Origin: Crystallibacter degradans
Lineage (GTDB): Bacteria > Actinomycetota > Actinomycetes > Actinomycetales > Micrococcaceae
NCBI RefSeq assembly: GCF_012952295.1
Contig: NZ_JABBCH010000008.1
Location: 112,700 to 176,699 of the forward strand
Length of the DNA stretch: 64,000 bases
Direction: 5' to 3'
Shown piece by piece: positions 18,611 through 42,764 of the stretch; position 1 is the first letter of the stretch, and each line of letters starts with the position of its first letter. Under the pieces are notes generated by a model. That model saw only the letters and a program-made list of their open reading frames with translations, searched no databases and was not told the DNA's origin. A program made the position numbers and the translations under genes.

Positions 18611-18698
18611 AGTACCTCATCAAAGGTGCGAGTGAACAAGACACCGGCTGGTCCTAGAGCCTCCCCCAACCTCCTGGACCAGCCGGTGTCATTCGTTT
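18611..18698 (+). ncRNA. Candidate small RNA, C-rich-loop family, copy A
   Basis: About 88 nt with no coding potential. The 5' part has ACCT pairing with AGGT around CATCAA, then GCGAGTGA, also found in copies B and C. A perfect 15-bp stem follows (18640-18654 with 18676-18690). Its loop contains CTCCCCCAACCTCC, an anti-Shine-Dalgarno-like sequence, and it is followed by ATTCGTTT, so the stem doubles as a terminator. The stem sequence differs from copies B and C while pairing is kept, which argues for a structured RNA. It lies between convergent genes, so it is not a leader of a plus-strand gene. Confidence 0.7.
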
Positions 18699-18753
18699 AA
18701 GACCGCCGGTGACAACTCTGGCGAATTCTTGGGATCCGGACGCCTCAGCTTCT

Positions 18754-19437
18754 TCAGCTCGCGGGGTACGGCATTTTCTTCAGGCTCGAGGCCAGATGCA
18801 CCGCATTGCGGGCGGACGTCGCCGTCGTCGTTGCTGTTACCTCCGGCGTTTCGGGCAGGTCCTGGAAGTTGGTGCCGTGCATGGCCTCCCCGACCCAGTA
18901 CGTGGATCCCTGAGCCGGGATACTGAAGCCGACATCGCCCAGGCCCTGGTAGAGCTCGGCGGTGACATGGTGGGCGCCATCCTCATTTCCGACGACGGCG
19001 ACCAGCGCCACCTTGTCGTACATGCTTGGCCGGCCCTGGCCATCCGTCTCGGACAGCTCCGCATCCAGCCGCTCCAGAACCATCTGCGCAATACTTGCCG
19101 GATGTCCCAGCCAGATCGGCGTGGCGAGCACCAGAATGTCCGAGGCGAGAATCTGCTCCCGGATCCGGGGCCATTCGTCGCCGTCGCCCATGTCGGTGTG
19201 GACGCCGGGCTTGATGGTGTGGTCCACCACCCGGATCAGATCGCACTCGACGCCTTTGGAACTCAGTTGCTGGATGACTTGGCGGGCCAGCAACTCGCTG
19301 CTCGAAGGCTTGGGCGACGGCGTCAGGGTGCAGACCAGGGCAAGGGCTTTGAGCTTCACATCATCCATGGGGCCATTCTGCCGACGATCCCGGCGGGCTG
19401 CCACCCTAAGCGGCACATTCGTATTCAGGTTATTCAC
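18754..19437 (-). CDS. Flavodoxin-like NAD(P)H-dependent oxidoreductase
   Basis: This 227-residue cytoplasmic flavoprotein belongs to the NAD(P)H-dependent FMN reductase/flavodoxin family. The FMN phosphate loop is CTLTPSPKPSSSELLARQ at about residues 38-55, followed by LVLATPIWLGHPASIAQM, which contacts the isoalloxazine ring, and VALVAVVGNEDGAHHV in the third flavin loop. I place the start at GTG 19437, five bases after GGAGG; an ATG at 19461 and an internal ATG at 19368 are alternatives. The 5' end of this gene overlaps the upstream control element of small RNA copy B on the other strand. Confidence 0.86.
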   Translation of the reverse strand: MNNLNTNVPLRVAARRDRRQNGPMDDVKLKALALVCTLTPSPKPSSSELLARQVIQQLSSKGVECDLIRVVDHTIKPGVHTDMGDGDEWPRIREQILASDILVLATPIWLGHPASIAQMVLERLDAELSETDGQGRPSMYDKVALVAVVGNEDGAHHVTAELYQGLGDVGFSIPAQGSTYWVGEAMHGTNFQDLPETPEVTATTTATSARNAVHLASSLKKMPYPAS

Positions 19438-19477
19438 AGGTTCCTCCGGGCTTGTATCCATGTACAGGCCCTACTGT
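19424..19477 (+). promoter_or_regulatory. Upstream element and -10 of small RNA copy B
   Basis: CAGG tetramers at 19426 and 19437 and CCGG at 19446 repeat the 11/9 spacing of the other two copies; 21 bases after the GGG comes TACTGT (19472-19477). The block ACAGGTT-N-CTCCGGG is shared almost exactly with copy C. On the opposite strand the same CCTCC is the ribosome-binding site of the flavodoxin gene. Confidence 0.6.
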
Positions 19478-19481
19478 TGGA

Positions 19482-19565
19482 AACACCTCATAGGTGCGAG
19501 TGATTACGGCACCGGCGGTCGGAGTTTCCCCCAACCTCCCGACTCGCCGGTGCCTTCTCTTTTGT
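19482..19565 (+). ncRNA. Candidate small RNA, C-rich-loop family, copy B
   Basis: About 84 nt. A 5-bp hairpin (CACCT 19484-19488, AGGTG 19492-19496) is followed by GCGAGTGA. Then comes a long stem, 19508-19522 with 19539-19554, enclosing a loop with TTTCCCCCAACCTCC, and a TTCTCTTTTT tract typical of an intrinsic terminator. It ends about 68 bp before pheA. It might therefore be a terminated leader of pheA, but copies A and C have no plus-strand gene behind them, so an independent RNA is more likely. Confidence 0.75.
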
Positions 19566-19632
19566 CACGTTCGTTAAGCGCCGGAGCAGACTCGGATGCA
19601 TTGAGCGAAGGCGGCGATGCGATAATTCAGCC

Positions 19633-20481
19633 ATGACTGATGCAATCGCCTACCAAGGTGAACCGGGCTCCAACTCCCATATAGCGTGCACCGAAGTGCG
19701 CCCCGACTGGGAGGCAGTGCCGTGCGCCAGCTTCGAGGACGCCTTCGCCCAAGTCACCAGTGGCCAGGCAAAGCTCGCCATGATTCCCATCGACAATTCG
19801 ATCGCCGGGCGCGTTGCCGACATCCATGCCATGCTGCCCAACACCACGCTGCAGATTATCGAGGAACATTTCCTGCGCATTAGGTTCAGCCTGCTGGGGA
19901 TCCCGGGCACCAGCATTGGCGAGGCCAAGGAAGTCCACAGCCACATTCATGCACTGGGGCAGTGCCGGAAGCTGATCCGCGAGCTCGGCCTCAAACCGGT
20001 CATCGCCGGCGACACTGCCGGGTCCGCCCGTGAGGTCAGCGAGTGGAAGGATCCGTCCAAGGTTTCCCTCGCACCGCCGATGGCCGCCGAGCTCTATGGA
20101 CTCGATGTCCTCGCGCGCGATGCAGAAGACGATCCCACGAACACCACCCGATTCGTGGTGCTGGCGGACAAGCAGCCGATTCCCAGCCGCGAAGAGCTTG
20201 CGGGCCGGGCCGTGACGAGCTTCGTCTTCCGCGTCCGGAACGTTCCGTCAGCCCTCTACAAGGCGCTGGGCGGCTTCGCCACCAACGGCATTAACATGAC
20301 CCGGCTGGAAAGCTACATGGTCGGCGGCGAGTTTGCGGCCACCATGTTCATGGTGGATGTGGAGGGCCATCCCGAAGACACGGCGATGATCCATGCCTTC
20401 GAGGAACTGGACTTCTTCACCACCGAGATCCGTATCCTCGGGGTCTATCCTGCGCATCCCTTCCGGCTCAAAACCGCTTAG
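19633..20481 (+). CDS. pheA: Prephenate dehydratase
   Basis: This 282-residue monofunctional enzyme converts prephenate to phenylpyruvate in phenylalanine synthesis. The catalytic domain (about 1-180) has AYQGEPGSNSH at the start, IPIDNSIAGRVADIH and the essential NTTRF motif near residue 168. A C-terminal ACT domain follows (VPSALYKALGGFATNGINMT). Where the classical regulatory motif ESRP is expected, this protein reads LESYM, as in the subgroup common in alphaproteobacteria and some actinobacteria. It stands alone, 68 bp downstream of the terminator of small RNA copy B, and may have its own promoter in that gap. Confidence 0.95.
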   Translation: MTDAIAYQGEPGSNSHIACTEVRPDWEAVPCASFEDAFAQVTSGQAKLAMIPIDNSIAGRVADIHAMLPNTTLQIIEEHFLRIRFSLLGIPGTSIGEAKEVHSHIHALGQCRKLIRELGLKPVIAGDTAGSAREVSEWKDPSKVSLAPPMAAELYGLDVLARDAEDDPTNTTRFVVLADKQPIPSREELAGRAVTSFVFRVRNVPSALYKALGGFATNGINMTRLESYMVGGEFAATMFMVDVEGHPEDTAMIHAFEELDFFTTEIRILGVYPAHPFRLKTA

Positions 20482-20518
20482 GAACCGTCCGGGTCGGGGC
20501 TGGCAATCGCCGAACAGG

Positions 20519-21595
20519 TCAGCCGTTCCCGGGATTGAGCACTTCGTCAAGGTTGAACTTCACCGGTTCTTCCAGCTGCGCGTAAGTGCAGGACCGCGGA
20601 TCCCGGTCCGGACGCCACCGGACGAACTGCGTAGTGTGCCGGAACCGTTCGCCCTCCATGTGGTCATACTTCACCTCGACCACGCGCTCCGGGCGCAGCG
20701 GCGTGAAGGACAAGTCCTTGCCCCCGCTCCACCGGCTGCCTTCGGAATTGCGCGGGGTCCGGGTGCCCTCCTCCTGCTTCGCCCATGCCCATGGATGGTC
20801 ATCGAAGGTCGTGACCAGCGGCTGCAGTTCCTCGAACAGCTCTTGGCGCCGCTGCATCGAAAACGAACCGGCCACGCCCACGTTGGCGAGCTCGCCGTCG
20901 TCGGTATAAAGGCCCAGCAGCAGGGAGCCGATCCGGTCCGGTCCGCTTTTGTGAACCCGGTATCCGGCGAGCACGCAGTCCACGGTGCGCTCGTGCTTGA
21001 TCTTGAACATTGCCCGCTTGTTCGGCTGGTACAGGCCGTCCAGCGGTTTCGCGATCACGCCGTCGAGCCCGGCGCCTTCAAACTCACGGAACCAGCGCGT
21101 GGCCACACCGTGGTCTGCCGTGGCATTCGTCAGGTGGATCGGCGGCTGCGCGTCGGCGAGCGCCTTTTCCAAGCGGGCACGGCGCTCGGCAAAGGGCTCG
21201 CCGGTCAGGTCCTCGTCGCCCAGGGCCAGCAGGTCGAAGGCGACGAACTTGGCCGGCGTCTGATCGGCAAGAAGCTTCACCCGGCTGGCGGCGGGATGGA
21301 TCCGCTGCTGGAGGGCCTCGAAGTCCAGCCGGTCCCCCGAAGCTGAGACCAGGACGATTTCGCCGTCGACCACGCACCGTTCGGGCAGGTTCTCTTTGAC
21401 AGCTTCGATGATCTCGGGAAAGTAGCGGTTCATCGGCTTTTCGTTGCGGCTGCCGATTTCGACGTCGTCCCCGTCGCGGAAGATGATCGATCTGAACCCG
21501 TCCCACTTGGGTTCGAAGCTCATGTCGCCGTCGGGAATCTCGCTGAGGGGCTTCGCCAGCATCGGGGCGACCGGGGGCATCACCGGAAGTTTCAT
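20519..21595 (-). CDS. ligC: ATP-dependent DNA ligase, LigC type
   Basis: This 358-residue stand-alone ligase seals nicks with ATP. The nucleotidyltransferase core shows motif I EPKWDGFR with the adenylated Lys30, motif III AFDLLALGD, motif IV LDGVIAKPLDG and motif V AMFKIKHERTVD. An OB-fold domain follows with VEVKYDHMEGERFRH near the end. It lacks the polymerase and nuclease domains of LigD, fitting the LigC branch that acts in a backup excision repair or end-joining route in actinobacteria. It is probably co-transcribed with the upstream reductase-like gene, nine bases away. Confidence 0.93.
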   Translation of the reverse strand: MKLPVMPPVAPMLAKPLSEIPDGDMSFEPKWDGFRSIIFRDGDDVEIGSRNEKPMNRYFPEIIEAVKENLPERCVVDGEIVLVSASGDRLDFEALQQRIHPAASRVKLLADQTPAKFVAFDLLALGDEDLTGEPFAERRARLEKALADAQPPIHLTNATADHGVATRWFREFEGAGLDGVIAKPLDGLYQPNKRAMFKIKHERTVDCVLAGYRVHKSGPDRIGSLLLGLYTDDGELANVGVAGSFSMQRRQELFEELQPLVTTFDDHPWAWAKQEEGTRTPRNSEGSRWSGGKDLSFTPLRPERVVEVKYDHMEGERFRHTTQFVRWRPDRDPRSCTYAQLEEPVKFNLDEVLNPGNG

Positions 21596-21604
21596 GTACC
21601 TCTC

Positions 21605-22168
21605 CTAGCGGACGGTATAGCGGACAGCGACACCGCCGGGCTTCAGGACCTCGGCGCTGTGCAGGACAAACTTTTCTCCGGCGGCCGACGGCGGATATAC
21701 CGGCAGCCCTTCGCCGAGCACGGTGGGCAGCATGTGCAGGTACAACTCATCCACCAGCTCCTTGCGGAACAGCAGCCGTGTCAGCGTCAGCGAGCCCCAG
21801 ACAATAACGTCGCCGCTCTCGGTGTCTTTGAGTTCGTGGATCCGGGCGGGAATGTTGTCGCCGATAACCTGCGCCTCGCCGTCGCCCCAGGGCGCCCGGT
21901 CCAAGGTTCTGGACACCACGTGCTTGGGCAGCCGGTTGATCGGCTCCGCAATGGGCTCCTGCTGCGGATCGGCGCCCGGCCAGTAAGCGGCGAACATCGA
22001 GTAGGTTACCCGGCCGAGCAGAATGGCCGAACAGCCCTCAAGCAGGCGGGTGTTGGCATCCATTATGGAAGTCCAGCCGCGGATCTGGTCCATAAACCGC
22101 AGGCCGCCGTCAGGCTCGGCCGCGTAGCCGTCCATCGTGGTGAACTGCTGGATAATGAGCGTGCCCAT
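21605..22168 (-). CDS. Dihydrofolate reductase family protein (RibD C-terminal-like)
   Basis: This 187-residue protein has the RibD C-terminal/DHFR-like fold that binds NADPH: IQQFTTMDGYAAEPDGGL at the start, SAILLGRVTYSMFAAYWPGA, and GDVIVWGSLTLTRLL, then LYLHMLPTVLGEGLPVYP. These are hallmarks of the large family of uncharacterised YyaP/YqjY-like reductases. It is not a classical folate enzyme. AGGAAGGA lies five bases before the ATG. It precedes ligC on the same strand by nine bases. Confidence 0.9.
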   Translation of the reverse strand: MGTLIIQQFTTMDGYAAEPDGGLRFMDQIRGWTSIMDANTRLLEGCSAILLGRVTYSMFAAYWPGADPQQEPIAEPINRLPKHVVSRTLDRAPWGDGEAQVIGDNIPARIHELKDTESGDVIVWGSLTLTRLLFRKELVDELYLHMLPTVLGEGLPVYPPSAAGEKFVLHSAEVLKPGGVAVRYTVR

Positions 22169-22389
22169 GATGGTCCTTCCTGCGCAGCCAGGCCACCGGC
22201 GTCCGCTGGCCGAATTGAGCGTCCCTCCATCACGTTAGTGTCCGCAGTCCGATTTGGACAGGGCCTTATAGCCAGGCCTTCTTCCCGCCCGGCCCTTCGC
22301 ACCGGGGGAAGGAGCGGGCTGCCGGCGGCGCGTGCTAAGAAAGTAAGGACAGTTCCGGACGGGACAGCCCCAATCGACAGGACTCAACA

Positions 22390-23376
22390 GTGCAATCTCG
22401 CCGCATCGGCACCCAGGAAGTTGCCAGCATCGGTCTGGGCTGCATGAATCTCAGCCACGCCTACGGGACTCCGCCGCCGCGGGAAGCTGCTGCAGAATTG
22501 CTCCGGCATGCTCTGGACAGCGGAGTGGTTCACTTTGATACAGCGGCGCTGTACGGGGCCACGGCCAACGAGACGCTGGTCGGCGAGGTACTCGGTTCGC
22601 GGCGCGATGAGTTCTTCCTGGCCAGCAAATGCGGCATGACCAGTGTTGACGGCAAACGTGTGATCGACGGCCGTCCGGAAACGCTCAAAGCCACCTGCGA
22701 GGACGCGTTGCGCCGGCTCCGTACGGGCCACATCGACCTCTATTACTTGCACCGCTGGGACCAGGACATTCCGATTGAAGACAGTGTCGGTGCCCTGGCC
22801 GAACTGGTCCAGGAAGGCAAGATCGGCGGAATCGGCCTGTCCGAGGTTTCGGCGGCAACGCTGCGGCGGGCACATGCCGTCCATCCGATTGCCGCGCTCC
22901 AGACCGAGTACTCTCTCTGGAGCCGCAATCCCGAGCTCGGCACGCTGGCCGCGTGCGCGGAGCTCGGCACGGCCTTCGTCGCGTTCAGCCCGCTGGGCCG
23001 CGGCTTCCTTACCGGCAAGATCCGCGACGTCGCAGCGCTGCCGGAAACGGACATCCGACGCGCGATGCCGCGCTTCTCCGCCGCGAACTACCCGCGGAAC
23101 CTTGAGCTCCTGGATCAGTTCGCGGGACTGGCCGGGGAAGCCGGCTGCACTCCCGCCCAGCTGGCCATCGCGTGGCTGCTGCACCAGGGCGAGCACGTCA
23201 TCGCGCTGCCGGGAACCACCGGCGTTCCCCACCTGGACGAGGATCTGGCGGGCGACGCCGTCGTCGTTAATGAGGAGGTGCTCAAGCGCGCGGACGCGCT
23301 GATTAACGAGCAGACCGTCCACGGCCCGCGCTACAGCCCCGCTATGCAGGCCGACGTCGATACCGAAGAATTCTAG
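22390..23376 (+). CDS. Aldo/keto reductase
   Basis: This 328-residue NADPH-dependent reductase acts on aldehydes or ketones. The catalytic tetrad residues of the (beta/alpha)8 fold are visible: Asp and Tyr in FDTAALYGATANE, Lys in FLASKCGM and His in YYLHRWDQD. The cofactor region reads ALPGTTGVPHLDED. The start is a GTG at 22390 with AGGA ten bases upstream. It is a single gene, convergent with the PIG-L gene that ends 15 bases away. The substrate cannot be told; it is closest in style to YajO/IolS-type AKRs. Confidence 0.92.
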   Translation: MQSRRIGTQEVASIGLGCMNLSHAYGTPPPREAAAELLRHALDSGVVHFDTAALYGATANETLVGEVLGSRRDEFFLASKCGMTSVDGKRVIDGRPETLKATCEDALRRLRTGHIDLYYLHRWDQDIPIEDSVGALAELVQEGKIGGIGLSEVSAATLRRAHAVHPIAALQTEYSLWSRNPELGTLAACAELGTAFVAFSPLGRGFLTGKIRDVAALPETDIRRAMPRFSAANYPRNLELLDQFAGLAGEAGCTPAQLAIAWLLHQGEHVIALPGTTGVPHLDEDLAGDAVVVNEEVLKRADALINEQTVHGPRYSPAMQADVDTEEF

Positions 23377-23391
23377 ACCGCGAAGGCCGGG

Positions 23392-24111
23392 CTAGAACCG
23401 GTACAGCTCGAACCCGACCCGCCGGGCTGCGGCGTCGGGACCACCGGTGGTCAGCTCGATCTGGCGCCGGGCCTGGGCTTCAACGGGCTCCGGGCTCAGC
23501 GCTTCCAGATAACGCCGGTGTTCGCTCAGGGACCGGACTGCCCGTTCAATGCTGTCCTCGTCGACGTCGAGCCAGTGCGTGGGGTGCATGGAACACACGC
23601 CCACCCAGCGCACGCCGGCGTGCGGCGGCAGATCTTCTGCGCTGAGCTCGGGGAAGATCCACTCGTTGGCCGCGTCCGCTACCGCGTCCATGACAGCTGT
23701 TCCCAGGTTGCGGTGGTCGGGAGAATTCCAGCTGCCCGGGCCCCAGGTTTGGCCGAAGTTCAGGGTGATGATGCCGTCCGGCCGGTGCCGGCGGATGGCG
23801 CGGGCGATATCCATCCGCAGACCTAGCGTGTTCTCGATCCTGCCGTCCGCGTAGTCCAGGAACTCCAGGTCCTCGACGCCGACGTGCCCGCACGCCCGGC
23901 GCTGTTCCTCGGCACGGAGCACCGTCGCCTCCTGGGGATCAAGCCCCGCAATGCCTGCTTCACCTCGCGTCGCCAACACGTAGCCGATGCTCTTGCCCGC
24001 CATTGTCCACTGGGCGACGGCCGCCGCGGCCCCGTACTCCGGATCATCCGGGTGGGCCATCACCACCAGCGCCCGCTGCCAATCACTCGGCATTTCCGAC
24101 GACGTTTCCAT
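23392..24111 (-). CDS. PIG-L family deacetylase
   Basis: This 239-residue zinc-dependent N-deacetylase belongs to the LmbE/MshB/Mca family, which acts on N-acetylglucosaminyl compounds or mycothiol conjugates. The metal and catalytic motif AHPDDPEYG is at about residues 19-27, and a later His comes from SPDHRNLG. GGGGGAGG lies six bases before ATG 24111; a frame extending to 24195 has no ribosome site. The missing MshB/Mca signature residues leave the exact substrate open; a sugar-amide or thiol-conjugate role is inferred from the family. Confidence 0.9.
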   Translation of the reverse strand: METSSEMPSDWQRALVVMAHPDDPEYGAAAAVAQWTMAGKSIGYVLATRGEAGIAGLDPQEATVLRAEEQRRACGHVGVEDLEFLDYADGRIENTLGLRMDIARAIRRHRPDGIITLNFGQTWGPGSWNSPDHRNLGTAVMDAVADAANEWIFPELSAEDLPPHAGVRWVGVCSMHPTHWLDVDEDSIERAVRSLSEHRRYLEALSPEPVEAQARRQIELTTGGPDAAARRVGFELYRF

Positions 24112-24367
24112 AGCTGCCTCCCCCGTACACGGGCCGCTGCATTGGCCCGATGACTGTTGTTTCACCCAGCGTAGCCGCGACGGCAAGGCCGGCACCTTGA
24201 TAACGGCGCAATCTCGCGTCTACGTCCGGAATCTCTTTCCCATTACGGTCATTGTCGTCGGGAAGCCGCGTCCCTACCATGGAAGAACCTCAGTACCCGT
24301 CCCTGCGGGACACCACGAACCACAGCTTTCCCTTCATCCGCGCACGTCTCACGCCCAAGGATCTGCC

Positions 24368-24616
24368 GTGAAAAATCTGCCCCGCCGACTGGCCATGCGT
24401 ACCCTGGCCGCCCTTGACCTGCACTGTGCCCGCTGCGACTCGGTTGGAGAACACCGCCTGGACAAGCACCTGGGCAGAGCCGGAACCCAAGTCTCCCCAA
24501 TCGTCCGGGCGCGGCAGTACGTGCTGGTTTGCGCCGCCTGCGGCGTAGCCCAGGAGCTGACGGAACAGCAGAAAAGATCAGTCCTGCACTACACAGCCCA
24601 CCCCGCGACGGCCTGA
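24368..24616 (+). CDS. Small protein with two CxxC pairs (zinc-ribbon-like)
   Basis: This 82-residue protein has two cysteine pairs, CARC at about residue 20 and CAAC at about residue 54, spaced as in a zinc ribbon, within an otherwise basic and helical sequence. GTG 24368 is preceded by AAGGA at six bases. It contains no further domain I recognise. The frame is embedded in a longer open frame, and only this part has typical codon usage. It might bind RNA or protein. Confidence 0.58.
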   Translation: MKNLPRRLAMRTLAALDLHCARCDSVGEHRLDKHLGRAGTQVSPIVRARQYVLVCAACGVAQELTEQQKRSVLHYTAHPATA

Positions 24617-24680
24617 CCGCGCGTTACGTCCTATTGCCTTGGCTTGACCCGCGGCCCGTCAAGCTCTTAGCGTGATAGTT

Positions 24681-24762
24681 GAATCATGAGCGCCAACATC
24701 AAGCCCTGGCTTGTTGGCCGGCAACCCTCTCGTGCGTAGCGGGGTGCTCCAGGTGATGATTC
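24681..24762 (+). promoter_or_regulatory. SAM-IV riboswitch
   Basis: The closing stem is a perfect GAATCAT (24681-24687) with ATGATTC (24756-24762). Inside it, GAGCGCCAAC, GGCTTGTTGGCCGGCAACC and GCGGGGTGCTCCAGGTGATG match the conserved core of the actinobacterial SAM-IV class, which binds S-adenosylmethionine. It lies about 100 bases upstream of the flavin reductase-like gene at 24861, on the same strand, with an expression platform between. SAM binding is expected to turn the gene off. Motif match is by eye. Confidence 0.88.
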
Positions 24763-24860
24763 GGCCTTACCGGAAGGACACCGGTTCGGCAAGTACCGCG
24801 TATCCGCCCCACGCGATGAGCCGGGCCAACGGATCCGCCTGATGGCAAAGGACAACCGCG

Positions 24861-25367
24861 ATGCCCCTGACTGACGACCTGCAGCCCGACACCCTCCGCA
24901 GCGCCTTCGGCCGCTTCCCCTCCGGCATCGCTGCCTTGTGCGCCCTGGTCGACGGCGAGCCGCAGGGAATCGTGGCTTCTTCCTTCACCGTCGGCGTTTC
25001 CATGGACCCGCCGCTGGTGATGTTCGCGGTGCAGAACACCTCCCGCACCTGGCCGGTAGTCCGCCAGGCCGACCGGATCGGCGTGTCCATCCTCGGCGCC
25101 GGGCATGACGGCGTCTGCCGCCAGATAGCCTCGAAGACCGGGGACCGCTTCGCCGGCCTGCCCCTGCACTCCACGGACGAAGGCGCCCTCTTCCTCGAGG
25201 AAGCCGCGCTGTGGCTGGACTGCTCCGTGGAGCAGGAAGTCCCCGCCGGCGACCACCATGTGGTGCTGCTGCGCGTCCACGGCCTGACCACGCACGACGG
25301 CGCCCACGAACCGCTGGTCTTCCACGGATCCACCTTCCGCCGGCTCGAACAACCCGCCTACATCTGA
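24861..25367 (+). CDS. Flavin reductase-like (FMN-binding split-barrel) protein under SAM control
   Basis: This 168-residue protein has the flavin reductase-like split barrel that binds FMN: RSAFGRFPSGIAALCAL at about residues 13-29, GIVASSFTVGVSMDPPLVMF and CSVEQEVPAGDHHVVLLRV. Such enzymes supply reduced flavin to a two-component monooxygenase. Because a SAM-IV riboswitch precedes it, a role in sulfur acquisition, for example with an alkanesulfonate or thioether monooxygenase encoded elsewhere, is likely; that is inference. AAAGGA lies eight bases before the ATG. No monooxygenase partner is in the window. Confidence 0.9.
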   Translation: MPLTDDLQPDTLRSAFGRFPSGIAALCALVDGEPQGIVASSFTVGVSMDPPLVMFAVQNTSRTWPVVRQADRIGVSILGAGHDGVCRQIASKTGDRFAGLPLHSTDEGALFLEEAALWLDCSVEQEVPAGDHHVVLLRVHGLTTHDGAHEPLVFHGSTFRRLEQPAYI

Positions 25368-25455
25368 GGAACTGTTCCCAACCAACGACGGCGGACGCTT
25401 GGCTTCCAAGGACCGGCGGCGGATCGCGCCAAGCAGCAATCGTGCCAGGCTGGGC

Positions 25456-26382
25456 CTAGGCGGCGCCGGCGGCTGACGGTTCGTCCAGGTTCCCGTCCAG
25501 CAGGCTCAGGAGCTTGAGAACCGCCGGATTGGTATTGTTCTCGTTCCACGCCACCTCAAGGTCTACGCGGTTCAGCGCTTGCGTACCGCGGGAGCCTTCG
25601 ATCTCACGGAACCGCACCCGCGGCGGCGAAAACGCCCGCGTCGACGCCGGAACCAGCGTCACGCCCAGGCCTGCTTCCACGAAGGCCAACAGGGCCGGAA
25701 CCTGGCTGGCGTACTGGGTGATCCGGGGCTCCGCACCGGCACTGGCAAACAGCCGCAGCACCAAGTCGTGGAAGTAGCGGGCCTCGCTGGTCGAGTACAT
25801 CATCAAAGGCTCACCGCTCAGGGCCTGCAGCGGCAGGGACTCCGCCTCCTCCAGCAACGGGCTCTCCTCGGGCAAGGCGATCACCAGGCGGTCCTGCATC
25901 ACCGGCCGTGAGACGATGCCGGGTCGGGCAACAATTGGCCGAAGCAAGCCGATATCCACCGTGCCTTTGACCAGTCCGTCCATCTGGTCCGTGGATACCA
26001 ATTCGCGCAGCAGCAGGGAAACGCCTGGCTGATCCTCGGCAGAGCGTCTGAGAAGTCTGGGCAGCGCGCTCTGGCCGGCTATGGCGGTGTAGCCAATAGT
26101 GACGGCGCCGGCGTCACCTGTTGCCACTCGCTGGACGTCCAGCTGGGTTTTGATTGACAAGTCAAGGATCAGCCGGGCACTGGGCAACAGGGTCCGGCCC
26201 GCGGCGGTCAGCTCGACTCGGCGGCTGGTGCGGTCGAAGAGCTGCGCGTGCAACTCCTTTTCCAACAGCTGGATCTGCCGGCTCAGGGGCGGCTGCGTCA
26301 TGTTGAGCCGTTCGGCTGCAGCACCAAAGTGCAGCTCCTCGGCTACTGCAATAAAGGACTCCAACTGGATCAGCGTAAACAT
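25456..26382 (-). CDS. LysR-family transcriptional regulator of the sugar-acid genes
   Basis: This 308-residue regulator has an N-terminal winged helix (LESFIAVAEELHFGAAAERL and QPPLSRQIQLLEKEL) and a C-terminal periplasmic-binding-like effector domain. It is divergent from kdgD with 123 bp between, the standard arrangement for LysR control of the neighbouring operon. A shared 55-bp operator module starts at its own ATG and recurs at 36481, so it probably also governs the transporter and dehydrogenase there. The effector is likely a sugar acid or its dehydrated product. Confidence 0.93.
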   Translation of the reverse strand: MFTLIQLESFIAVAEELHFGAAAERLNMTQPPLSRQIQLLEKELHAQLFDRTSRRVELTAAGRTLLPSARLILDLSIKTQLDVQRVATGDAGAVTIGYTAIAGQSALPRLLRRSAEDQPGVSLLLRELVSTDQMDGLVKGTVDIGLLRPIVARPGIVSRPVMQDRLVIALPEESPLLEEAESLPLQALSGEPLMMYSTSEARYFHDLVLRLFASAGAEPRITQYASQVPALLAFVEAGLGVTLVPASTRAFSPPRVRFREIEGSRGTQALNRVDLEVAWNENNTNPAVLKLLSLLDGNLDEPSAAGAA

Positions 26383-26435
26383 CAATGCGCTCCTTGTATT
26401 GTTCTGTGCCTATTTTAGCTTGGACGCGCATCGAT
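26381..26435. promoter_or_regulatory. Operator/promoter module, copy 1 (LysR / kdgD)
   Basis: Left half ATCAATGCGC (26381-26390) and right half GCGCATCGAT (26426-26435) are inverted copies (9 of 10). TTGGAC, a -35-like hexamer, is at 26420-26425, with TTATCG 18 bases further on as a possible -10 for kdgD. The whole 55-bp block aligns without gaps to 36481-36535. The left half overlaps the LysR start codon, so autoregulation is plausible. Confidence 0.65.
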
Positions 26436-26505
26436 GACGGCACTTATCGTCAGAGTAGTGCAGGCGACAACGAAGCGCCGGTCCTTTAGCTACCAAGGAG
26501 ATTAA

Positions 26506-27417: not shown

Positions 27418-27429
27418 AGGACGTTCCCC

Positions 27430-33721: not shown

Positions 33722-33730
33722 GGGTTCCTC

Positions 33731-34660: not shown

Positions 34661-34691
34661 GGTTTCGTTCCTCGTTTCCCTGCTGTCGTTT

Positions 34692-36266: not shown

Positions 36267-36480
36267 TGGATTCCTTCGGGTCTAAGCACTGCACTCGGTT
36301 CGTTGTCTACGTATGAAGCTCACGTCTGTGCTGGTGATCATCAGCTTGTGGCCCCGAACGCCACCCGTCAAGAAGCACTTTTTCTGTGAACGGCCGCCAA
36401 AACGGCACCCGGCCTTGACATTGCCTGTGATCCAGCCCACTGTTCCGCATGATTCCGGGGATTTTTGCGTCAGTGTCCCT

Positions 36481-36535
36481 ATCAATGCGCCCAGCGTATT
36501 GATTCATGCAATTTCCGAGTTGGACGCGCATCGAT
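36481..36535. promoter_or_regulatory. Operator/promoter module, copy 2 (transporter / dehydrogenase)
   Basis: This is the second copy of the module at 26381-26435: ATCAATGCGC at 36481-36490, TTGGAC at 36520-36525 and GCGCATCGAT at 36526-36535, with identical 45-base spacing between half-sites. TTACTG lies 18 bases after TTGGAC, so a transcript would start within a few bases of the ATG at 36558, giving a leaderless message. It sits in the divergent region between the ABC operon and the second dehydrogenase gene. Confidence 0.65.
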
Positions 36536-36557
36536 TCGCATCATTACTGTCCAACTC

Positions 36558-37508
36558 ATGACGACAACCAAAGCAGTGCTGCAGGTAGGTCCATTGATGC
36601 CCGCCGTTCAGGATTCGATCACCACCGAGTACGGGGCCGTACGCCTGCCGGACAACGCAGATGAGCGTGCTACGTTCCTCGCAGCCAGAGGCGCTGAATT
36701 CGGCGTCGCCGTGACATCGGGTCGATTCGGTGTAGGCACTGAACTCATGCAACATCTGCCGAACCTGCGCGCCGTGGTGAACTTCGGCGTTGGCTATGAC
36801 ACCACCGATGTGGCCCAGGCTGCCGAGCGCGGGATCGCTGTCAGCAACACCCCGGACGTTCTCAATGACTGTGTCGCCGATACCGCCCTCGCACTTTACC
36901 TGGATGTCCTCCGCAGGATCAGCACCGCGGACCGATATGTCCGTCGAGGCGATTGGCTAAGCAAGGGCAACTTCCCGCTGGCAACCAAAGCCAGCGGGAA
37001 GCGCGTCGGCATTGTCGGCCTCGGCCGCATCGGCAAAGTCATCGCGCGCCGGCTGGAAGGCTTCGATTGCCTCATCTCGTACCACAACCGCCGTCCCGTC
37101 GACGGCGTCCCATACGAATACCGGGACTCGCTCATTGATCTCGCCCGGGACTCCGATGTCCTCATCGTGGCGGCCGCGGGCGGGCCCGACTCCGCCGGAC
37201 TGATCAACGCAGACGTTATCGATGCCCTGGGCCGCGATGGATACCTGATCAACATCGCCCGCGGTAGCGTGGTCGACGAGACCGCCCTCGTCGCCGCATT
37301 GGCCAAGGGAAAACTGGCCGGCGCCGGACTCGATGTCTTCGCCGAAGAGCCCAAGGTCCCCGTGGAGCTACTGGGGCTGGATAACGTCGTCGTCCTCCCG
37401 CATTTGGGCAGCGGCACCCATGAAACCCGCGCCGACATGGCACAACTGACCCTGGCTAACCTCAAGCGATTCCTGGACGACGGCACCTTGGAAACTCCCG
37501 TCCAATAA
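36558..37508 (+). CDS. D-2-hydroxyacid dehydrogenase, second copy
   Basis: This 316-residue enzyme belongs to the D-isomer-specific 2-hydroxyacid dehydrogenase family (GhrB/glyoxylate-hydroxypyruvate reductase-like). The cofactor motif is VGIVGLGRIGKVIARRL, the substrate Arg lies in INIARGSVVDETAL and the catalytic His in VVVLPHLGSGTHETR. It differs clearly from the copy at 28767. No Shine-Dalgarno precedes ATG 36558 and the predicted promoter ends close to it, so it is probably leaderless. It shares the LysR-type operator module with kdgD and is followed after 32 bp by a universal stress protein gene. Confidence 0.92.
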   Translation: MTTTKAVLQVGPLMPAVQDSITTEYGAVRLPDNADERATFLAARGAEFGVAVTSGRFGVGTELMQHLPNLRAVVNFGVGYDTTDVAQAAERGIAVSNTPDVLNDCVADTALALYLDVLRRISTADRYVRRGDWLSKGNFPLATKASGKRVGIVGLGRIGKVIARRLEGFDCLISYHNRRPVDGVPYEYRDSLIDLARDSDVLIVAAAGGPDSAGLINADVIDALGRDGYLINIARGSVVDETALVAALAKGKLAGAGLDVFAEEPKVPVELLGLDNVVVLPHLGSGTHETRADMAQLTLANLKRFLDDGTLETPVQ

Positions 37509-37540
37509 CCTCCCGCATCCACCAGCAAACAGGAGTAGAC

Positions 37541-37936
37541 ATGAGTGTTGCCGTTGGCTTCGTTCCCACCGACGAAGGACGCATTGCGCTGCAGAGTGCA
37601 ATTGATGAGGCTGCCCTCCGCGGCACCAATCTGAGGATCCTCGGCCCCGCTCAAGCGGAGAATACGCCGGCCGCCCAGGCAGAACTGGCGGTAGCCCTGA
37701 AGCGAGCCGCGGACCTTGGCGTACAGGCAGCGGTCCGGGACATGGAGGGCGACGACGATCCGGGCGACCTCATCGTTGACGTCTCCTTTGAAGACGACGT
37801 CGATCTGGTCGTTATCGGTGTCCGCCGCCGTTCCCGGGTGGGCAAGCTGATTCTTGGCAGCACAGCCCAGCGGATCATTCTCGAAGCCGGGTGCCCCGTC
37901 CACGCGGTCAAACCCCCAGTCGGCCCGCGCGGCTGA
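37541..37936 (+). CDS. Universal stress protein
   Basis: This 131-residue protein has the single UspA alpha/beta fold. The ATP-binding motif G-2x-G-9x-G(S/T) appears in IGVRRRSRVGKLILGST near residues 94-110, followed by ILEAGCPVHAV. AGGAG precedes the ATG at seven bases. It follows the second dehydrogenase after 32 bp and is probably in the same transcript. USPs in catabolic operons are frequent in actinobacteria and likely sense energy or nucleotide state; no direct role in the pathway can be read. Confidence 0.92.
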   Translation: MSVAVGFVPTDEGRIALQSAIDEAALRGTNLRILGPAQAENTPAAQAELAVALKRAADLGVQAAVRDMEGDDDPGDLIVDVSFEDDVDLVVIGVRRRSRVGKLILGSTAQRIILEAGCPVHAVKPPVGPRG

Positions 37937-38065
37937 CGGAGCCTCTGCCGGACCCGCCGACAGCTTCCGCCCCTCCTAGTCTGTCTGCATATGAAGACGA
38001 CTGCGCCAGACCAACCCTTTCCGCTAAAGTATCGTCAACGGTCATCTTCACGGGAAGGAGCCCGC

Positions 38066-38884
38066 ATGAGCGCACCTTCGGCGGCACCAGTTCGGGCGAG
38101 TACGACGCCCCTCAGCGGCATTCGTGAAGTGAAGTCTGCGGCACGAACTGTGGAAGTTCTTGAGTTCCTTGCTGCACGGCGCAACCAGCCAGTGACCATC
38201 CGGGAACTCTGCGAGCAGCTGTCCGCGCCGCGCAGCAGCATCTATGCACTCCTGCGCACTCTCACTGACCTGGGATGGGTCCGTACGGATCCGACCCGAT
38301 CGATGTACAGCATCGGTATCAGGGCACTCCTCGCCGGCACCACCTATCTGGATACGGATCCGCTGTTGCGAATCGTGCAGCCGCACCTCGAGGAGCTCGG
38401 CAAACGCCTGGGCGAGACGGTGCACTACGGCAGGCTGGATGGCTCCGACATGGTCTATCTCGCCACGCAGGAATCCCCCGCTTACGAACGAAAATCCAAC
38501 CGCGTCGGCCGCCGGCTTCCGGCTTATGCAACATCGCTTGGCAAAGCGGTGCTGGCAAACATTGGCCCCGATCTGGAAGCCCACTTGCCGGAGAAGTTGC
38601 TGCCCTTGACTCCGCACACCATCACCTCGCGTCGAAGGCTCAAGACAGATCTGGAGGCCAGCAGGAAGCGGGGCTACGCCATCGACCACGAAGAGAACAC
38701 CCTGGGCTTACGCTGCTTCGGGGTCGGTCTGAACCTGGATGACGGTGGCGGCGACGCCTTAAGCTGTTCGGTACCCTTAGAGCGTCTGACCCCGCCCCGG
38801 CAGCAAGAAATCGTGGCCGAGCTCATTGCGACTGCAACAATCATGCGAAAAATCGTCCGCAGTCTCGACGGCCTGCTCCGCTAA
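38066..38884 (+). CDS. IclR-family transcriptional regulator
   Basis: This 272-residue regulator has the IclR winged helix (REVKSAARTVEVLEFLAARR, RELCEQLSAPRSSIYALLRTL) and the C-terminal effector domain with LGLRCFGVGLNL and the hydrophobic RLPAYATSLGKAVLAN. GGAAGGAG precedes ATG 38066 at five bases; an earlier ATG at 37991 lacks one. It lies between the sugar-acid island and the aldehyde dehydrogenase gene, and a perfect palindrome at 38969 stands in front of that gene. It may therefore control the dehydrogenase, the island, or both. Confidence 0.92.
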   Translation: MSAPSAAPVRASTTPLSGIREVKSAARTVEVLEFLAARRNQPVTIRELCEQLSAPRSSIYALLRTLTDLGWVRTDPTRSMYSIGIRALLAGTTYLDTDPLLRIVQPHLEELGKRLGETVHYGRLDGSDMVYLATQESPAYERKSNRVGRRLPAYATSLGKAVLANIGPDLEAHLPEKLLPLTPHTITSRRRLKTDLEASRKRGYAIDHEENTLGLRCFGVGLNLDDGGGDALSCSVPLERLTPPRQQEIVAELIATATIMRKIVRSLDGLLR

Positions 38885-38968
38885 CTCGACAGCCCGCCCG
38901 GCCCCGACGGGACGCGACACCGTGACCGGTTTCACAAAATCGGCCTTTCGCGACATGATTACAGCATG

Positions 38969-38992
38969 GCCGGAAATAATGTAATTTCCGGC
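38969..38992. promoter_or_regulatory. Perfect palindromic operator before the aldehyde dehydrogenase gene
   Basis: GCCGGAAAT and ATTTCCGGC, each nine bases, are perfectly inverted around the six-base spacer AATGTA. It is 30 bases upstream of the GTG at 39022 and in a locally A+T-rich patch. The IclR regulator just upstream is the obvious candidate to bind it. Confidence 0.6.
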
Positions 38993-39021
38993 GTGCCGTT
39001 GATCAGATAGGAGCCCTGGCC

Positions 39022-40428
39022 GTGACAGCTACGACCAACACCGCCTCATCCACGAAGACCGCTTACCGGGTGCTGAATCCGGCCACTGGTGAGGTGGTTG
39101 AAGAATTCCCGACTGCCACCGACGCGGATATCCAGGACGCACTCGCGGCAGCCCAGGAAGCCTTCCAGTCCTGGAAGGACGTGCCGATCACCGAGCGCGC
39201 CAAAGTGGTAGCCCGCATCGCGGAGCTGTTCACCGAGCGCGCCGACGAGCTGGCCGCCATCATTACCGAAGAAATGGGCAAGCCCATCGGCGAGTCCAAG
39301 GACGAAGCCGAGTTCTGCACGGACATTTTCAACTACTTCGCCACTGAGGGCCCGAGCCTCGTGGCGGACCAGGAGATCAAGGCCATCGGCGGTGGCCGCG
39401 CCATGATCCAGAAGCTCCCCGTCGGACCGCTGCTCGGCATCATGCCGTGGAACTACCCGTACTACCAGGTGGCCCGCTTCGCCGCGCCGAACTTGATGCT
39501 CGGCAACACCATCGTCCTCAAGCACGCGGAGAACTGCCCCAAGTCCGCCTTGGCCATCCAGAAGATCATGGACGACGCCGGCCTGCCGAAGGGCGCCTAC
39601 GTTAACGTCTTCGCCACGCATGACCAGGTTGCGGAGATCATTGCCGACCCGCGCATCCAGGGCGTCTCCCTGACCGGTTCGGAGCGGGCCGGTGCTGCCA
39701 TCGGCGAGATCGCCGGCCGCAACCTCAAGAAGGCCGTCCTCGAACTCGGCGGCTCGGACCCGTACGTGGTCCTGGACTCGGCCGACATCAAGGCGGCCGC
39801 GGGTCAGGCGTGGGATACCCGGATGGAAAACACCGGCCAGGCCTGCAACTCGAACAAGCGCATGATTGTCATGGAGGACATCTATGACGACTTCGTCGCC
39901 GAACTGACCGAGCGCGCCAAGAACATGAAGCCCGGCAACCCGGCCGAGGGCGCCGAGAATACCTTCGGCCCGCTTTCGTCGCGCGTCGCAGCGGAAGGCC
40001 TCGCTGAACAGTTGAAGGATGCGGTGAACAAGGGCGCTAAGGTCCACGCCGGCGGCGAGCTGGTGGACGGCCCGGGCTCTTACCTTGCTCCCACAGTGCT
40101 GACCGGTGTGACCAAGGAAATGCGCGCCTACAAGGAAGAGCTCTTCGGCCCGGTCGCCGTGGTCTACAAGGTCTCCAGCGACGAGGAGGCCATTGCCCTG
40201 GCCAACGACACCGACTACGGCCTCGGCGGTACCGTCTTCTCCACCGATGAGGAACGCGCCCGCAGGATAGCCCAGCGCCTGGAGGTCGGCATGGCCAACG
40301 TCAACGGCGTCGGCGAGGGTGCGGACATTCCGTTCGGCGGCGTCAAGCGCTCCGGCTTCGGCCGCGAACTCGGCCCGCTCGGCATGGATGAATTCGTCAA
40401 CAAGCGCCTCTTCTACATCGCCGACTGA
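39022..40428 (+). CDS. NAD(P)-dependent aldehyde dehydrogenase (succinate/oxoglutarate semialdehyde type)
   Basis: This 468-residue enzyme oxidises an aldehyde to its acid. It shows the ALDH sequence [18 protein letters not shown], the cofactor loop [12 protein letters not shown], catalytic Glu in [11 protein letters not shown] and catalytic Cys in [11 protein letters not shown]. It resembles actinobacterial GabD1-type succinate-semialdehyde dehydrogenases. KdgD releases 2-oxoglutarate semialdehyde, and no other dehydrogenase for it is in the island, so this gene may complete the glucarate route to 2-oxoglutarate; that is inference. GTG 39022 follows AGGAG by nine bases. Confidence 0.9.
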
Positions 40429-40449
40429 CACCGTCAACGGGCAAATAGA

Positions 40450-40505
40450 GTACGACGCCGGCACAAGGGTGGGCCGAAAAACTCACCCAAGTGCCGGCGT
40501 CGTAC
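40450..40505. terminator. Terminator hairpin after the aldehyde dehydrogenase gene
   Basis: GTACGACGCCGGCAC (40450-40464) pairs perfectly with GTGCCGGCGTCGTAC (40491-40505). Inside, GGGTG pairs with CACCC. It lies 21 bases after the stop. No T-tract follows, but the 15-bp stem is strong. The GACGCC/GGCGTC ends recur in other hairpins of this window. Confidence 0.75.
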
Positions 40506-40552
40506 GTTGCTGCTGCCGGCCTTTTCTGCGTCCGATAAACTGAGTGACCATC

Positions 40553-40939
40553 ATGAGCATCCCCACAAGCAGTCCGAAGTCAGTACGCATCGACGCCTGG
40601 CTGTGGGCCATCCGCGCCTACAAAACGCGCTCCGCCGCTACGGCTGCTTGCCGGGCTGGGCATGTGCGCCTGAACGGGAATCCAGCCAAGGCCTCCCAGG
40701 CCGTGGTGCCCGGCGATACCCTCCGGGTGCGCCAGCCGGGCTACGAACGCATTCTCGAAGTCCGGCAGCTGATCGCCAAGCGCGTCGGGGCCGAAGCCGC
40801 CTCGCACTGCTACACCGACCACACGCCGGAGCGGCCGCCCACGCCGTCGCTCCGCATCCCGCAGCGCGACCGCGGCACCGGCCGGCCTACCAAGAAGGAC
40901 CGCCGCGAACTGGAGCGGCTCCGCGGCCACCGCGGCTGA
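40553..40939 (+). CDS. S4 domain RNA-binding protein (HslR-like)
   Basis: This 128-residue basic protein has an N-terminal S4 domain, VRIDAWLWAIRAYKTRSAAT at about residues 10-29 and AGHVRLNGNPAKASQAVVPG, which binds structured RNA. A basic C-terminal tail follows (RPTKKDRRELERLRGHRG). This is the pattern of the heat-shock-related ribosome-rescue factor HslR/Hsp15, which acts on stalled 50S subunits. No ribosome-binding site precedes either GTG 40544 or ATG 40553; GATAAACT just upstream could be a -10 giving a leaderless mRNA. Confidence 0.87.
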   Translation: MSIPTSSPKSVRIDAWLWAIRAYKTRSAATAACRAGHVRLNGNPAKASQAVVPGDTLRVRQPGYERILEVRQLIAKRVGAEAASHCYTDHTPERPPTPSLRIPQRDRGTGRPTKKDRRELERLRGHRG

Positions 40940-41006
40940 GCAATGTGACGATTCTCCGCGACCCGCTGCCACCCGGCGCGTTCCACCTCAGCCACTGCCA
41001 CCCAGC

Positions 41007-42059
41007 TCAAACGGTCTTGCGCCGCAGGAAGTCCACACTCCGGGACAGGACGAGCTGTGCGGCCCTGCTGTCCAGCTTGAACTGGTATTCGTGGCCGAGT
41101 GCCGGCTCGTACCCGGCCGGGAAAAACAACGTCTCGATGTCGGCTCCTTGGTCGCTGAGCGCTTCGGCAAGCGCGAGGGAATGCGGCAGCAGTGGATCCG
41201 CGTTGCCGGCGGTCACAAACGCGGGCGGGAAGTCCGCTCCGACACGGCCGGTGATGGACGCGAGATCCACCTGCGGCATGGCCAGGTAGTTCCTGGAACC
41301 GGTGTAGGCCCACATCACCGTCCGCAGGAAGCCGTTGCCCATGCCGCCCTTGGCGCTTTTGATGGACAGATCGAACCCGCCGCAATGCAGCAGCACCGCA
41401 CGAAGTTCCGACAGACGGATGGGGGCGGGGATGCCCAGCTTCGCAGCGTAGTCGGCATCGGTGATCAGCAGCGCAAGTTGGGCGGCAATCTGGGCACCGG
41501 CGGAATCGCCGGCCAGCACCAGCCGTTCCGCGTCCACCCGCAGCCGTTCTGCATGCTGCTGCAGATAGGTCAGGGCGGCAGCTGCTTGGCGGACGGGTTC
41601 GGGGTATTTCTGCGCCTGGGCCAGAGAATAGCCGACGCCAACAGTAGTAAAACCGTAAGAAGCAAGGATCCGCAGGTAGTTGGCCACGTCCTCCTTACTC
41701 CCGGAAACCCAAGCCCCGCCATGAAGCCAGACGATGGTCGGCAGCCCCCGGGCTGTGTCGGCACGATCCGGATAGTAGACGTCCAGGTAGGCGCTGTCGC
41801 TGCTGTCCAGATACTGCTCATGGAGGACCTCCGAAATGCCCTCCGGCACGTGCCTGGCCATCTCGCGCGAGACCCGGCGCCAGTTCCGGTCGAACATAGT
41901 CCGGATCAGCAGTACGGCCGGCTTCGGACTAACCAGGCTCCAGGAAAACAGCGACACCACCAGTGCGCCAAGCACACCGGCGACGACGGCGAGAACCCGT
42001 AAACCTGACGGCAGCCGCCGGGCTACGGCCGCCTGGAGGGAGAGTTCATCCGCACTCAT
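41007..42059 (-). CDS. Alpha/beta hydrolase (hormone-sensitive lipase-like), membrane anchored
   Basis: This 350-residue esterase has an N-terminal membrane segment (LRVLAVVAGVLGALVVSLFSW at about 20-40) that probably anchors the catalytic domain outside the membrane. The domain shows HGGAW (oxyanion hole), the nucleophile in GDSAG, Asp in GNADPLLP and a His in GHEYQFK. These mark the hormone-sensitive-lipase/carboxylesterase family. The substrate is unknown; acyl or aryl esters are likely. It is a single gene between divergent and convergent neighbours. Confidence 0.88.
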   Translation of the reverse strand: MSADELSLQAAVARRLPSGLRVLAVVAGVLGALVVSLFSWSLVSPKPAVLLIRTMFDRNWRRVSREMARHVPEGISEVLHEQYLDSSDSAYLDVYYPDRADTARGLPTIVWLHGGAWVSGSKEDVANYLRILASYGFTTVGVGYSLAQAQKYPEPVRQAAAALTYLQQHAERLRVDAERLVLAGDSAGAQIAAQLALLITDADYAAKLGIPAPIRLSELRAVLLHCGGFDLSIKSAKGGMGNGFLRTVMWAYTGSRNYLAMPQVDLASITGRVGADFPPAFVTAGNADPLLPHSLALAEALSDQGADIETLFFPAGYEPALGHEYQFKLDSRAAQLVLSRSVDFLRRKTV

Positions 42060-42121
42060 GCTTCATTATGAACGAGGCCGGGGCCGCCGGATAGCTCTTA
42101 TAACGTCCCTGTAATGCGGCC

Positions 42122-42589
42122 CTACTCCACCACAAAAAGATTCAGCCGGACGGCATCCGGGTGCCGCTCTCCTGTCCCGACAATGATCTTTGACCCAAGC
42201 CACGCCCAACGTTCGCCAGCCGAGCTCAGCCGCGGACTGCAGCGGAAATAAATCCGCTCCGGCGGCACCGACTCGCCCCGGACCAGCGAGGCAATGTCTT
42301 CCGCCGAACCCGAGCGCAAACCGAAGTTCGAGACGTAGATGCGGTCGCCGTCGTTGGTCTCGATGGCGTATTGCGCCTGCAGCTCGGTGACCGTCTCGGA
42401 CTTGAGGATCTGGAAGTCGGCGCCGGCCGGAAGCACTTTGCCGCTCAAGGCCGGGCCCTGCACCGTACCGCCGATGATAGGGATGATCCGCCGGTGCCCC
42501 TCGGCAGTTTCGCCGACTTCGACCGGCTGCCCGACGGCGACGTCGATAGTGGCCAGGAAGGACAGGTTGGGTGTCTGGGGAGTGGTCAT
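42122..42589 (-). CDS. DUF3237 family protein
   Basis: This 155-residue protein matches DUF3237, a beta-rich lipocalin-like fold: LATIDVAVGQPVEVG, HRRIIPIIGGTVQG, AQYAIETNDGDRIYVSN and YFRCSPRLSSAG. Related proteins occur near aromatic-acid and ester-degradation genes, but the function is unknown. I prefer ATG 42589 because the fold begins right after it; a TTG start at 42634 adds 15 residues and reaches toward the small RNA element. Neither start has a good ribosome-binding site. Confidence 0.82.
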   Translation of the reverse strand: MTTPQTPNLSFLATIDVAVGQPVEVGETAEGHRRIIPIIGGTVQGPALSGKVLPAGADFQILKSETVTELQAQYAIETNDGDRIYVSNFGLRSGSAEDIASLVRGESVPPERIYFRCSPRLSSAGERWAWLGSKIIVGTGERHPDAVRLNLFVVE

Positions 42590-42622
42590 GGAAAGAGACG
42601 ATACCAAGGCCGCAAAGGGATA

Positions 42623-42676
42623 CTCAGGCAACACACAGGTTGCTCCGGGTCAATAAACAAGTTGGAGCTTTAGTGT
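42623..42676 (+). promoter_or_regulatory. Upstream element and -10 of small RNA copy C
   Basis: CAGG at 42625 and 42636 and CCGG at 42645 repeat the 11/9 spacing; ACAGGTT-N-CTCCGGG matches copy B; 21 bases later comes TAGTGT (42671-42676). Confidence 0.6.
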
Positions 42677-42680
42677 GAAA

Positions 42681-42764
42681 ACACCTCATAAAGGTGCGAG
42701 TGATGCGGCGTCGGCCGGTCGGAGTTTTCCCCCAACCTCCAGCCCGGCCGGCGCCTTTCTCTTT
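42681..42764 (+). ncRNA. Candidate small RNA, C-rich-loop family, copy C
   Basis: About 84 nt. CACCT (42682-42686) pairs with AGGTG (42692-42696), then GCGAGTGA. The terminator stem GGCGTCGGCCGG (42707-42718) pairs with CCGGCCGGCGCC ending near 42754 (one G-T pair), with a loop holding TTTTCCCCCAACCTCC, then TTTCTCTTT. No plus-strand gene follows; the next gene is convergent. The three copies share promoter, first hairpin, GCGAGTGA and loop, but differ in stem sequence with pairing conserved. Confidence 0.75.

Follow-up and report, generated by a model that had tools for sequence, protein, structure and literature searches.

The window analysed here, a 64,000-nt stretch of Crystallibacter degradans DNA, contains three + strand copies of a candidate small RNA (sRNA): copy A at 18611-18698, copy B at 19482-19565 and copy C at 42681-42764. 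An earlier note, made from the letters of this DNA, had described an sRNA family at these positions, and the positions are borne out. As that note claimed, the three copies have in common a small (C/T)ACCTC-AGGTG hairpin and a long hairpin with a CCCCCAACCTCC loop, and the stems of the long hairpins differ yet pair: that of copy A is a perfect 15-bp inverted repeat, and the outer ten of copy C include a single G-T pair. The segment GCGAGTGA is likewise shared; the description of it as purely single-stranded does not stand, because its GAG is able to pair with CTC of the 3′ tail, a helix for which 68% of cells are paired in the family alignment. Relative to dinucleotide shuffles, the folds of copies A, B and C have z values of -7.0, -4.7 and -3.3, with 0, 0 and 1 of 200 shuffles equalling them. 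In copy C the loop is closed by a GGAG-CTCC pairing, which for copy B appears in the centroid and not in the best fold; part of CCTCC is therefore not free there.

A family of probable small RNAs in Micrococcaceae

The earlier count of three copies is too low: the genome from which the window comes (4.96 Mb, 124 contigs) holds nine. An exact pattern finds six of them, and its reversed control none. A covariance model built from those six copies (R1) recovers eight copies strongly and, more weakly, one of a longer form (C48), along with some antisense echoes of these hairpins; a second model (R2), comprising promoter and 5′ hairpin and built from 37 sequences, recovers nine. Two copies (G000:C35:38820-38909 and G000:C56:4813-4903, on contigs of 69 kb and 8 kb) are near-identical together with their flanks, reflecting either a recent duplication or assembly redundancy.

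Extension of the covariance-model search to Micrococcaceae, the check that the earlier note proposed, gives matches to R1 in 101 of 149 family genomes. R2 matches 139 of the 149, in 31 of 32 genera, at one to nine copies each; the E-values of both models, built here, are rough. The ten genomes without an R2 match are seven of one genus (g6) and three of another (g3). From g6, the RNA is absent in all seven sampled genomes, and the regulator gene phoP, considered below, is present in both g6 genomes searched for it.

Across 248 genomes of the order, R2 matches 17, every one of them in the window's family and none in other families; two genomes of the window's family are without a match among the rows listed. 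The exact 5′ motif matches 8 of 297 genomes order-wide, all of the same family (24 genomes of that family are listed). A scan of named records with the 5′ motif yields at least 117 stretches, and the titles of the 80 listed name genera that we take to be Micrococcaceae, except for one Shewanella record and one contig of a metagenome-assembled genome labelled Acidobacteria. The latter (L062) has a proC-linked copy and a second copy, and is probably a mis-binned Micrococcaceae contig. The Shewanella record (L104), which is without a -10-like box, array or C-loop hairpin and may fall within coding sequence, was rejected as a chance match.

A 5′ expression applied to the loci fetched gave 175 distinct copies, of which 169 with full flanks were kept and six dropped. 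This set includes L104, whose removal from the promoter and context counts leaves 168. One copy, near position 2203 of L147 on the - strand, has a AAGGTGCGAGTGATGA segment in tandem repeat.

The copies share a block close to ACCTC-N3-5-AAGGTGCGAGTGAT, and the terminator hairpin behind it varies. Stem covariation, on which the earlier note had made its family depend, is found. In an alignment of 43 distinct C-loop rows fitted to the model, two-sided changes are seen at 13 of the 25 pairs and 92% of cells pair, as compared with 33-50% in slid controls; none of 500 shuffles equals the alignment on any of five measures. Predicted hairpin loops carry CCCC, CCTCC or CTCC in 122 of the 169 copies and the G-rich mirror in one; over a wider inner region, 134 copies are C-rich and 14 G-rich. 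The C-rich loop is thus common, not universal. Nine of the 169 match 16S-tail motifs, and four of these carry CACCTCCTT, which we take to be part of the 16S 3′ tail; CACCUCCUU, the anti-Shine-Dalgarno tail of 16S, is likewise present in four copies. A paralogous CCTTCTC subtype (L030, L038, L105, L158) has CACCTCCTT as its loop and, in the members displayed, the 5′ hairpin CCTTCTCAAGG; at L030, L038 and L158 an ordinary C-loop copy or a related one also lies nearby.

One copy appears to form a core. In 33 of the 169 copies, some of them tandem duplicates, proC lies divergently upstream within 600 nt. Five such neighbourhoods were read: in four, a Ppx/GppA gene lies farther downstream, preceded in two cases by an isomerase-like gene (named by reading), and L117 has a different gene; proC and Ppx were confirmed by Pfam at L120 only. 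The core copy of the window's own genome is C48. Core copies have an extra hairpin before the C-loop hairpin, and in L053 and L074 this extra hairpin also contains a C run. Seventeen core copies were aligned (of 28 displayed, out of the 33): none departs from CCCCCA, and two-sided changes, all in the outer stem, are seen at 9 of the 16 pairs predicted.

The predicted promoter array and a probable PhoP-type regulator

Every one of the 168 copies has a TANNNT -10 box located 12-14 nt upstream of the core, at exactly 13 nt in 144 of them, with a background of 0.45% per position. Each copy is thus predicted to have its own promoter. When the upstream DNA is aligned on the -10 box, four CAG peaks appear at -46, -35, -24 and -13, an exact 11-bp period, and the pooled array unit is approximately (T/C)TC(A/C)CAG(G/C)N4. 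These units resemble the TCACAGC-N4 repeat of Mycobacterium tuberculosis PhoP. That protein binds TCACAGC-N4-TCACAGC with a strict 4-bp spacing, and binds three- and four-unit sites more tightly (PMC4832192; papers are cited here from excerpted text). A direct repeat of the PhoP type upstream of the promoter, as in PhoP-activated sRNAs, is present.

A position weight matrix (PWM) was trained on 166 distinct sRNA upstream arrays. In the window its three best places, shifted overlaps aside, are the promoters of A, B and C (20.4-24.1; next unrelated place 12.3), which are members of the training set. As this holds for the sRNA promoters generally, the independent tests of the PWM are the scans of phoP, pstS and other regulators only. 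Of 16 loci with an OmpR-type domain in the window's own genome, the best 11 were scored, and phoP alone comes near the sRNA median, at 17.7 as compared with 18.0 for four units; the best of the ten other loci reaches 11.6, and the sRNA 5th percentile is 8.3 (four units). The product of this phoP has M. tuberculosis PhoP as its best solved relative (280 bits), followed by PrrA (185).

An orthologue of phoP occurs in 41 of 41 family genomes searched, at 73-100% identity. In the loci scanned, the best 30 of the 41 genomes, the array lies within 300 nt upstream of phoP at p<0.01 in 29 of 30 for three or four units and in 27 of 30 for two. With one of the 30 loci left out for its weak array, 27 of 29 have an xAnnnT hexamer exactly 7 nt past the phoP array, as against 0-8 of 29 at 29 other offsets tried. 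This array-to-hexamer spacing is that of the sRNA promoters. The phoP start codon (ATG or GTG) lies about 6-7 nt past the hexamer in most loci displayed (L230-L259), so that the phoP mRNA is probably leaderless.

The contact residues of PhoP are named in PMC4832192, in which Asn212 reaches its base through water. By alignment, with residue numbers assigned here, the helix of the regulator from the window's own genome has Ile for Val213 and Ser for Asn212, and keeps Glu215, Ser216, Tyr217 and Tyr220. The same helix is found in 21 of 30 phoP loci, the other nine being unmatched by the search expression. The change at Asn212 may explain the A/C looseness of the array unit at the water-contacted base. 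The simplest reading of these promoters is that PhoP would control both itself and the sRNA family, and control of the family by a PhoP-type regulator is judged likely.

Predicted features of the three window copies
Feature	Position	Strand	Basis
Copy A predicted PhoP-type box, four 11-bp CAG units	18550..18593	+	PWM 20.4, third-best place in window; in PWM training set
Copy A -10-like box TAGCGT	18601..18606	+	sequence; family rule TANNNT 12-14 nt before core
Copy A 5′ hairpin TACCT...AGGTG, constant module	18613..18628	+	fold, family alignment
Copy A conserved linker GCGAGTGA	18628..18635	+	sequence; invariant in 37-sequence alignment (copies found partly by same motif)
Copy A terminator hairpin	18640..18690	+	arms 18640-18654 and 18676-18690, C-rich loop 18660-18674; sequence and fold
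Copy A 3′ tail ATTCGTTTAA	18691..18700	+	sequence
Copy B predicted PhoP-type box	19421..19464	+	PWM 24.1, best in window; in training set
Copy B -10-like box TACTGT	19472..19477	+	sequence
Copy B 5′ hairpin CACCTCATAGGTG	19484..19496	+	fold, sequence
Copy B linker GCGAGTGA	19496..19503	+	sequence
Copy B terminator hairpin, loop region TTTCCCCCAACCTCC at 19525-19539	19508..19554	+	fold, sequence
Copy B 3′ tail TTCTCTTTTG	19555..19564	+	sequence
Copy C predicted PhoP-type box	42620..42663	+	PWM 23.7; in training set
Copy C -10-like box TAGTGT	42671..42676	+	sequence
Copy C 5′ hairpin CACCTCATAAAGGTG	42682..42696	+	fold, sequence
Copy C linker GCGAGTGA	42696..42703	+	sequence
Copy C terminator hairpin, loop region TTTTCCCCCAACCTCC at 42725-42740	42707..42755	+	fold, sequence
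Copy C 3′ tail TTTCTCTTTG	42756..42765	+	sequence

The window also holds two SAM-IV riboswitches, at 24682-24801 (+) and 59041-59156 (-), with Rfam scores of 86 and 84 bits. Copy A is flanked by a polyketide-cyclase-like gene and an FMN-reductase-like gene, copy B by the FMN-reductase-like gene and pheA, and copy C by a DUF3237 gene on one side and, on the other, a gene whose cupin match is weak and below the cut-off.

Alternative readings and known RNAs

Instead of being separate RNAs, copies of this kind might serve to terminate or attenuate the genes beside them. Copy A lies 89 nt behind a + strand gene, the end of copy B is 68 nt upstream of pheA, and a same-strand gene stands upstream of 86 of the 140 copies that have callable genes on both sides (genes were called by a simple script, and 28 or 29 of the 169 were dropped). 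Yet the upstream gene is on the other strand in 54 of the 140, the downstream gene in 99 and both in 41, and the fixed-spacing -10-like box stands directly before all 168 copies. The 99 copies that face an opposite-strand gene also lack the same-strand gene directly downstream that a cis-acting leader or riboswitch calls for. In the window, copy B alone precedes a same-strand gene, as the earlier note said, and neither copy B nor copy C has a + strand gene immediately before it to terminate; together with the ubiquitous -10 box, this agrees with its preference for independent RNAs. A role as terminators or attenuators is accordingly very improbable, and the arrangement argues strongly that the copies are independent sRNA genes. 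That they are short protein-coding genes or mobile repeats resembling repetitive extragenic palindromic (REP) elements is hardly credible. An AAGGTG stretch does stand at ribosome-site distance before a GTG, and genomes do hold several copies; but, counted from that GTG, the C run is spread over all three frames (46, 40 and 36 of 122), 33 of 168 GTG frames end at a stop within 12 codons, full upstream arrays are kept by the copies and the core copy is syntenic. A leader peptide beginning at the GTG after AAGGTG was rejected for want of a conserved frame. A phage origin was rejected as well: the 5′ motif, run once over viral contigs, gave no match.

The remaining alternatives accept the sRNAs and differ on what controls them or on which part acts. 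If the upstream boxes were Pho boxes of the pst type, the RNAs would belong to the phosphate starvation response. The phosphate regulator PhoR of Corynebacterium glutamicum prefers CCTGTGAAaatCCTGTGAA, whose reverse complement resembles the array units (PMC3353115). In pstS upstream regions, however, the array passes p<0.01 in only 1 of 30 for two or three units and 2 of 30 for four, and several have GTTCACC-type repeats instead (L184-L213), a Pho box different from the sRNA/phoP array. On these two grounds the phosphate reading, which is improbable, was dropped. Somewhat less improbable, though still unlikely, is that function resides in the constant 5′ module (the ACCTC hairpin with GCGAGTGATGA), acting as a protein-binding site or seed, and that the C-loop hairpin is a drifting terminator. 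The module is the most conserved part, three of its five hairpin pairs never varying (partly by selection), and it is kept in the 35 of 169 copies that lack a C loop. A drifting terminator, by contrast, is not expected to produce a loop bias of 122 C to 1 G in 169 copies, an invariant CCCCCA in 17 core copies despite changing stems, or copies that match the 16S tail. Exact complements of the 5′ module outside the copies number two in the window's own genome, where a seed search with TCACTCGCACC gave nine matches, seven of them the copies themselves and two elsewhere.

Several observations weigh against the proposal that PhoP-controlled sRNAs act through their C-rich loops. PhoP is also the best solved relative of another regulator, L218 (241 bits), which is without a strong box. 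phoP is found even in genomes without the RNA, so its presence in all 41 genomes lends no support by co-occurrence. Most copies were found by the exact 5′ motif and all were picked by the 5′ expression; conservation of the 5′ block is thus partly a product of selection. The 35 copies without CCCC or CCTCC in the terminator region (the Shewanella match among them) include several plain terminators, a T-rich tail is recognised by the expression used in only 123 of 168 copies, and 3 of 140 copies are flagged inside a predicted reading frame. A search of the window's own genome for sites of near-perfect complementarity to the 13-nt loop gave four non-copy sites with one mismatch, as compared with three for the reversed control, and none lies clearly at a gene start.

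The Rfam check that the earlier note called for gave no family that fits. The 6C RNA (RF01066; B11 in mycobacteria) is unmatched in the window and 15 loci at gathering score, and in 1.2 kb of the window and five loci at a permissive E-value; permissive matches are chiefly to microRNA models far below their cut-offs, and also to Scr3920 and MEG3_2. The likeness to 6C lies in being an actinobacterial sRNA with C-rich loops, and in Mycobacterium abscessus either loop of B11 alone represses a reporter with a G tract in its 5′ untranslated region (PMC10470900). The family differs from 6C in the missing Rfam match and in its extra 5′ module and PhoP-type box. As to the layout by which the earlier note set it apart, the window copies have one C-loop hairpin where 6C has two, and core copies such as L053 and L074 have C runs in two hairpins. 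Of 19 relatives searched for 6C, the 13 that belong to this family gave no match; the test is weak, as the C. glutamicum control fell below the cut-off. Cuckoo RNAs, of which CcsR is one, are multi-copy. The alpha-r14/cuckoo RNAs of Alphaproteobacteria are similar in that loops keep an identical anti-Shine-Dalgarno motif and stems differ; they have three hairpins, each with CCUCCUCCC, and for one of them, NfeR1, a link to the two-component system NtrBC is described (PMC10746234). In contrast, this family has one, sometimes two, hairpins with CCCCCAACC, CCCCCUCAC or CACCUCCUU and a conserved 5′ hairpin in front, and its 80 listed loci, apart from the Shewanella record and the Acidobacteria-labelled contig, lie in another phylum, outside the alphaproteobacterial distribution. 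Mcr7 of M. tuberculosis, likened here by description, is regulated under PhoP and predicted to cover the tatC ribosome site; it differs in being about 350 nt long and in its predicted confinement to the M. tuberculosis complex (PMC4038636). By the features tested, the family belongs to none of 6C, alpha-r14/cuckoo and Mcr7. Literature searches within one open-licence PMC library gave no description of it; four sRNAs are reported from Arthrobacter oxidans KQ11 (PMC6696678), with which it may overlap.

Proposed mechanism and significance

Taken together, the data make it reasonably probable that these are sRNA genes with a phoP-type promoter box whose C-rich loops pair with ribosome binding sites and repress translation. 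The proposed sequence of events would involve: activation of sRNA transcription by a PhoP-type response regulator; an RNA start close to the ACCTC hairpin, by which the 5′ end is likely shielded; an end of transcription at the C-loop hairpin; and use of the exposed C-rich loop as an anti-Shine-Dalgarno sequence on G-rich ribosome sites of mRNAs. Multiple copies with different terminators might add dosage or divide targets. In this scheme the working principle is likened to the 6C/B11 and alpha-r14/cuckoo RNAs and the regulation to Mcr7. Repression of the ribosome site by the loop is somewhat favoured. More tentatively, the whole could be a PhoP riboregulon: a proC core sRNA and its lineage expansions (up to nine copies) would be expressed jointly from phoP-type promoters, serving as decoys of the 16S anti-Shine-Dalgarno tail and as a stand-in for 6C, with an invariant 5′ module and exchangeable C-loop terminators.

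The earlier note lacked the regulator box, the spread through the family, the higher copy number, the shared 5′ module with its differing terminators, and the proC core copy. If the proposed mechanism is correct, a large and ecologically common group (Arthrobacter, Glutamicibacter, Nesterenkonia, Micrococcus, Kocuria and relatives) would have a trans-acting sRNA family. This family would be tied to a defined two-component regulator, and would open the function of PhoP to study in bacteria that are mostly harmless. The absence of the RNA from g6 is a natural loss worth comparing. Sibling RNAs that keep promoter and 5′ module while their terminator stems diverge around C-rich loops would, in turn, provide a natural test of targeting set by the loop.

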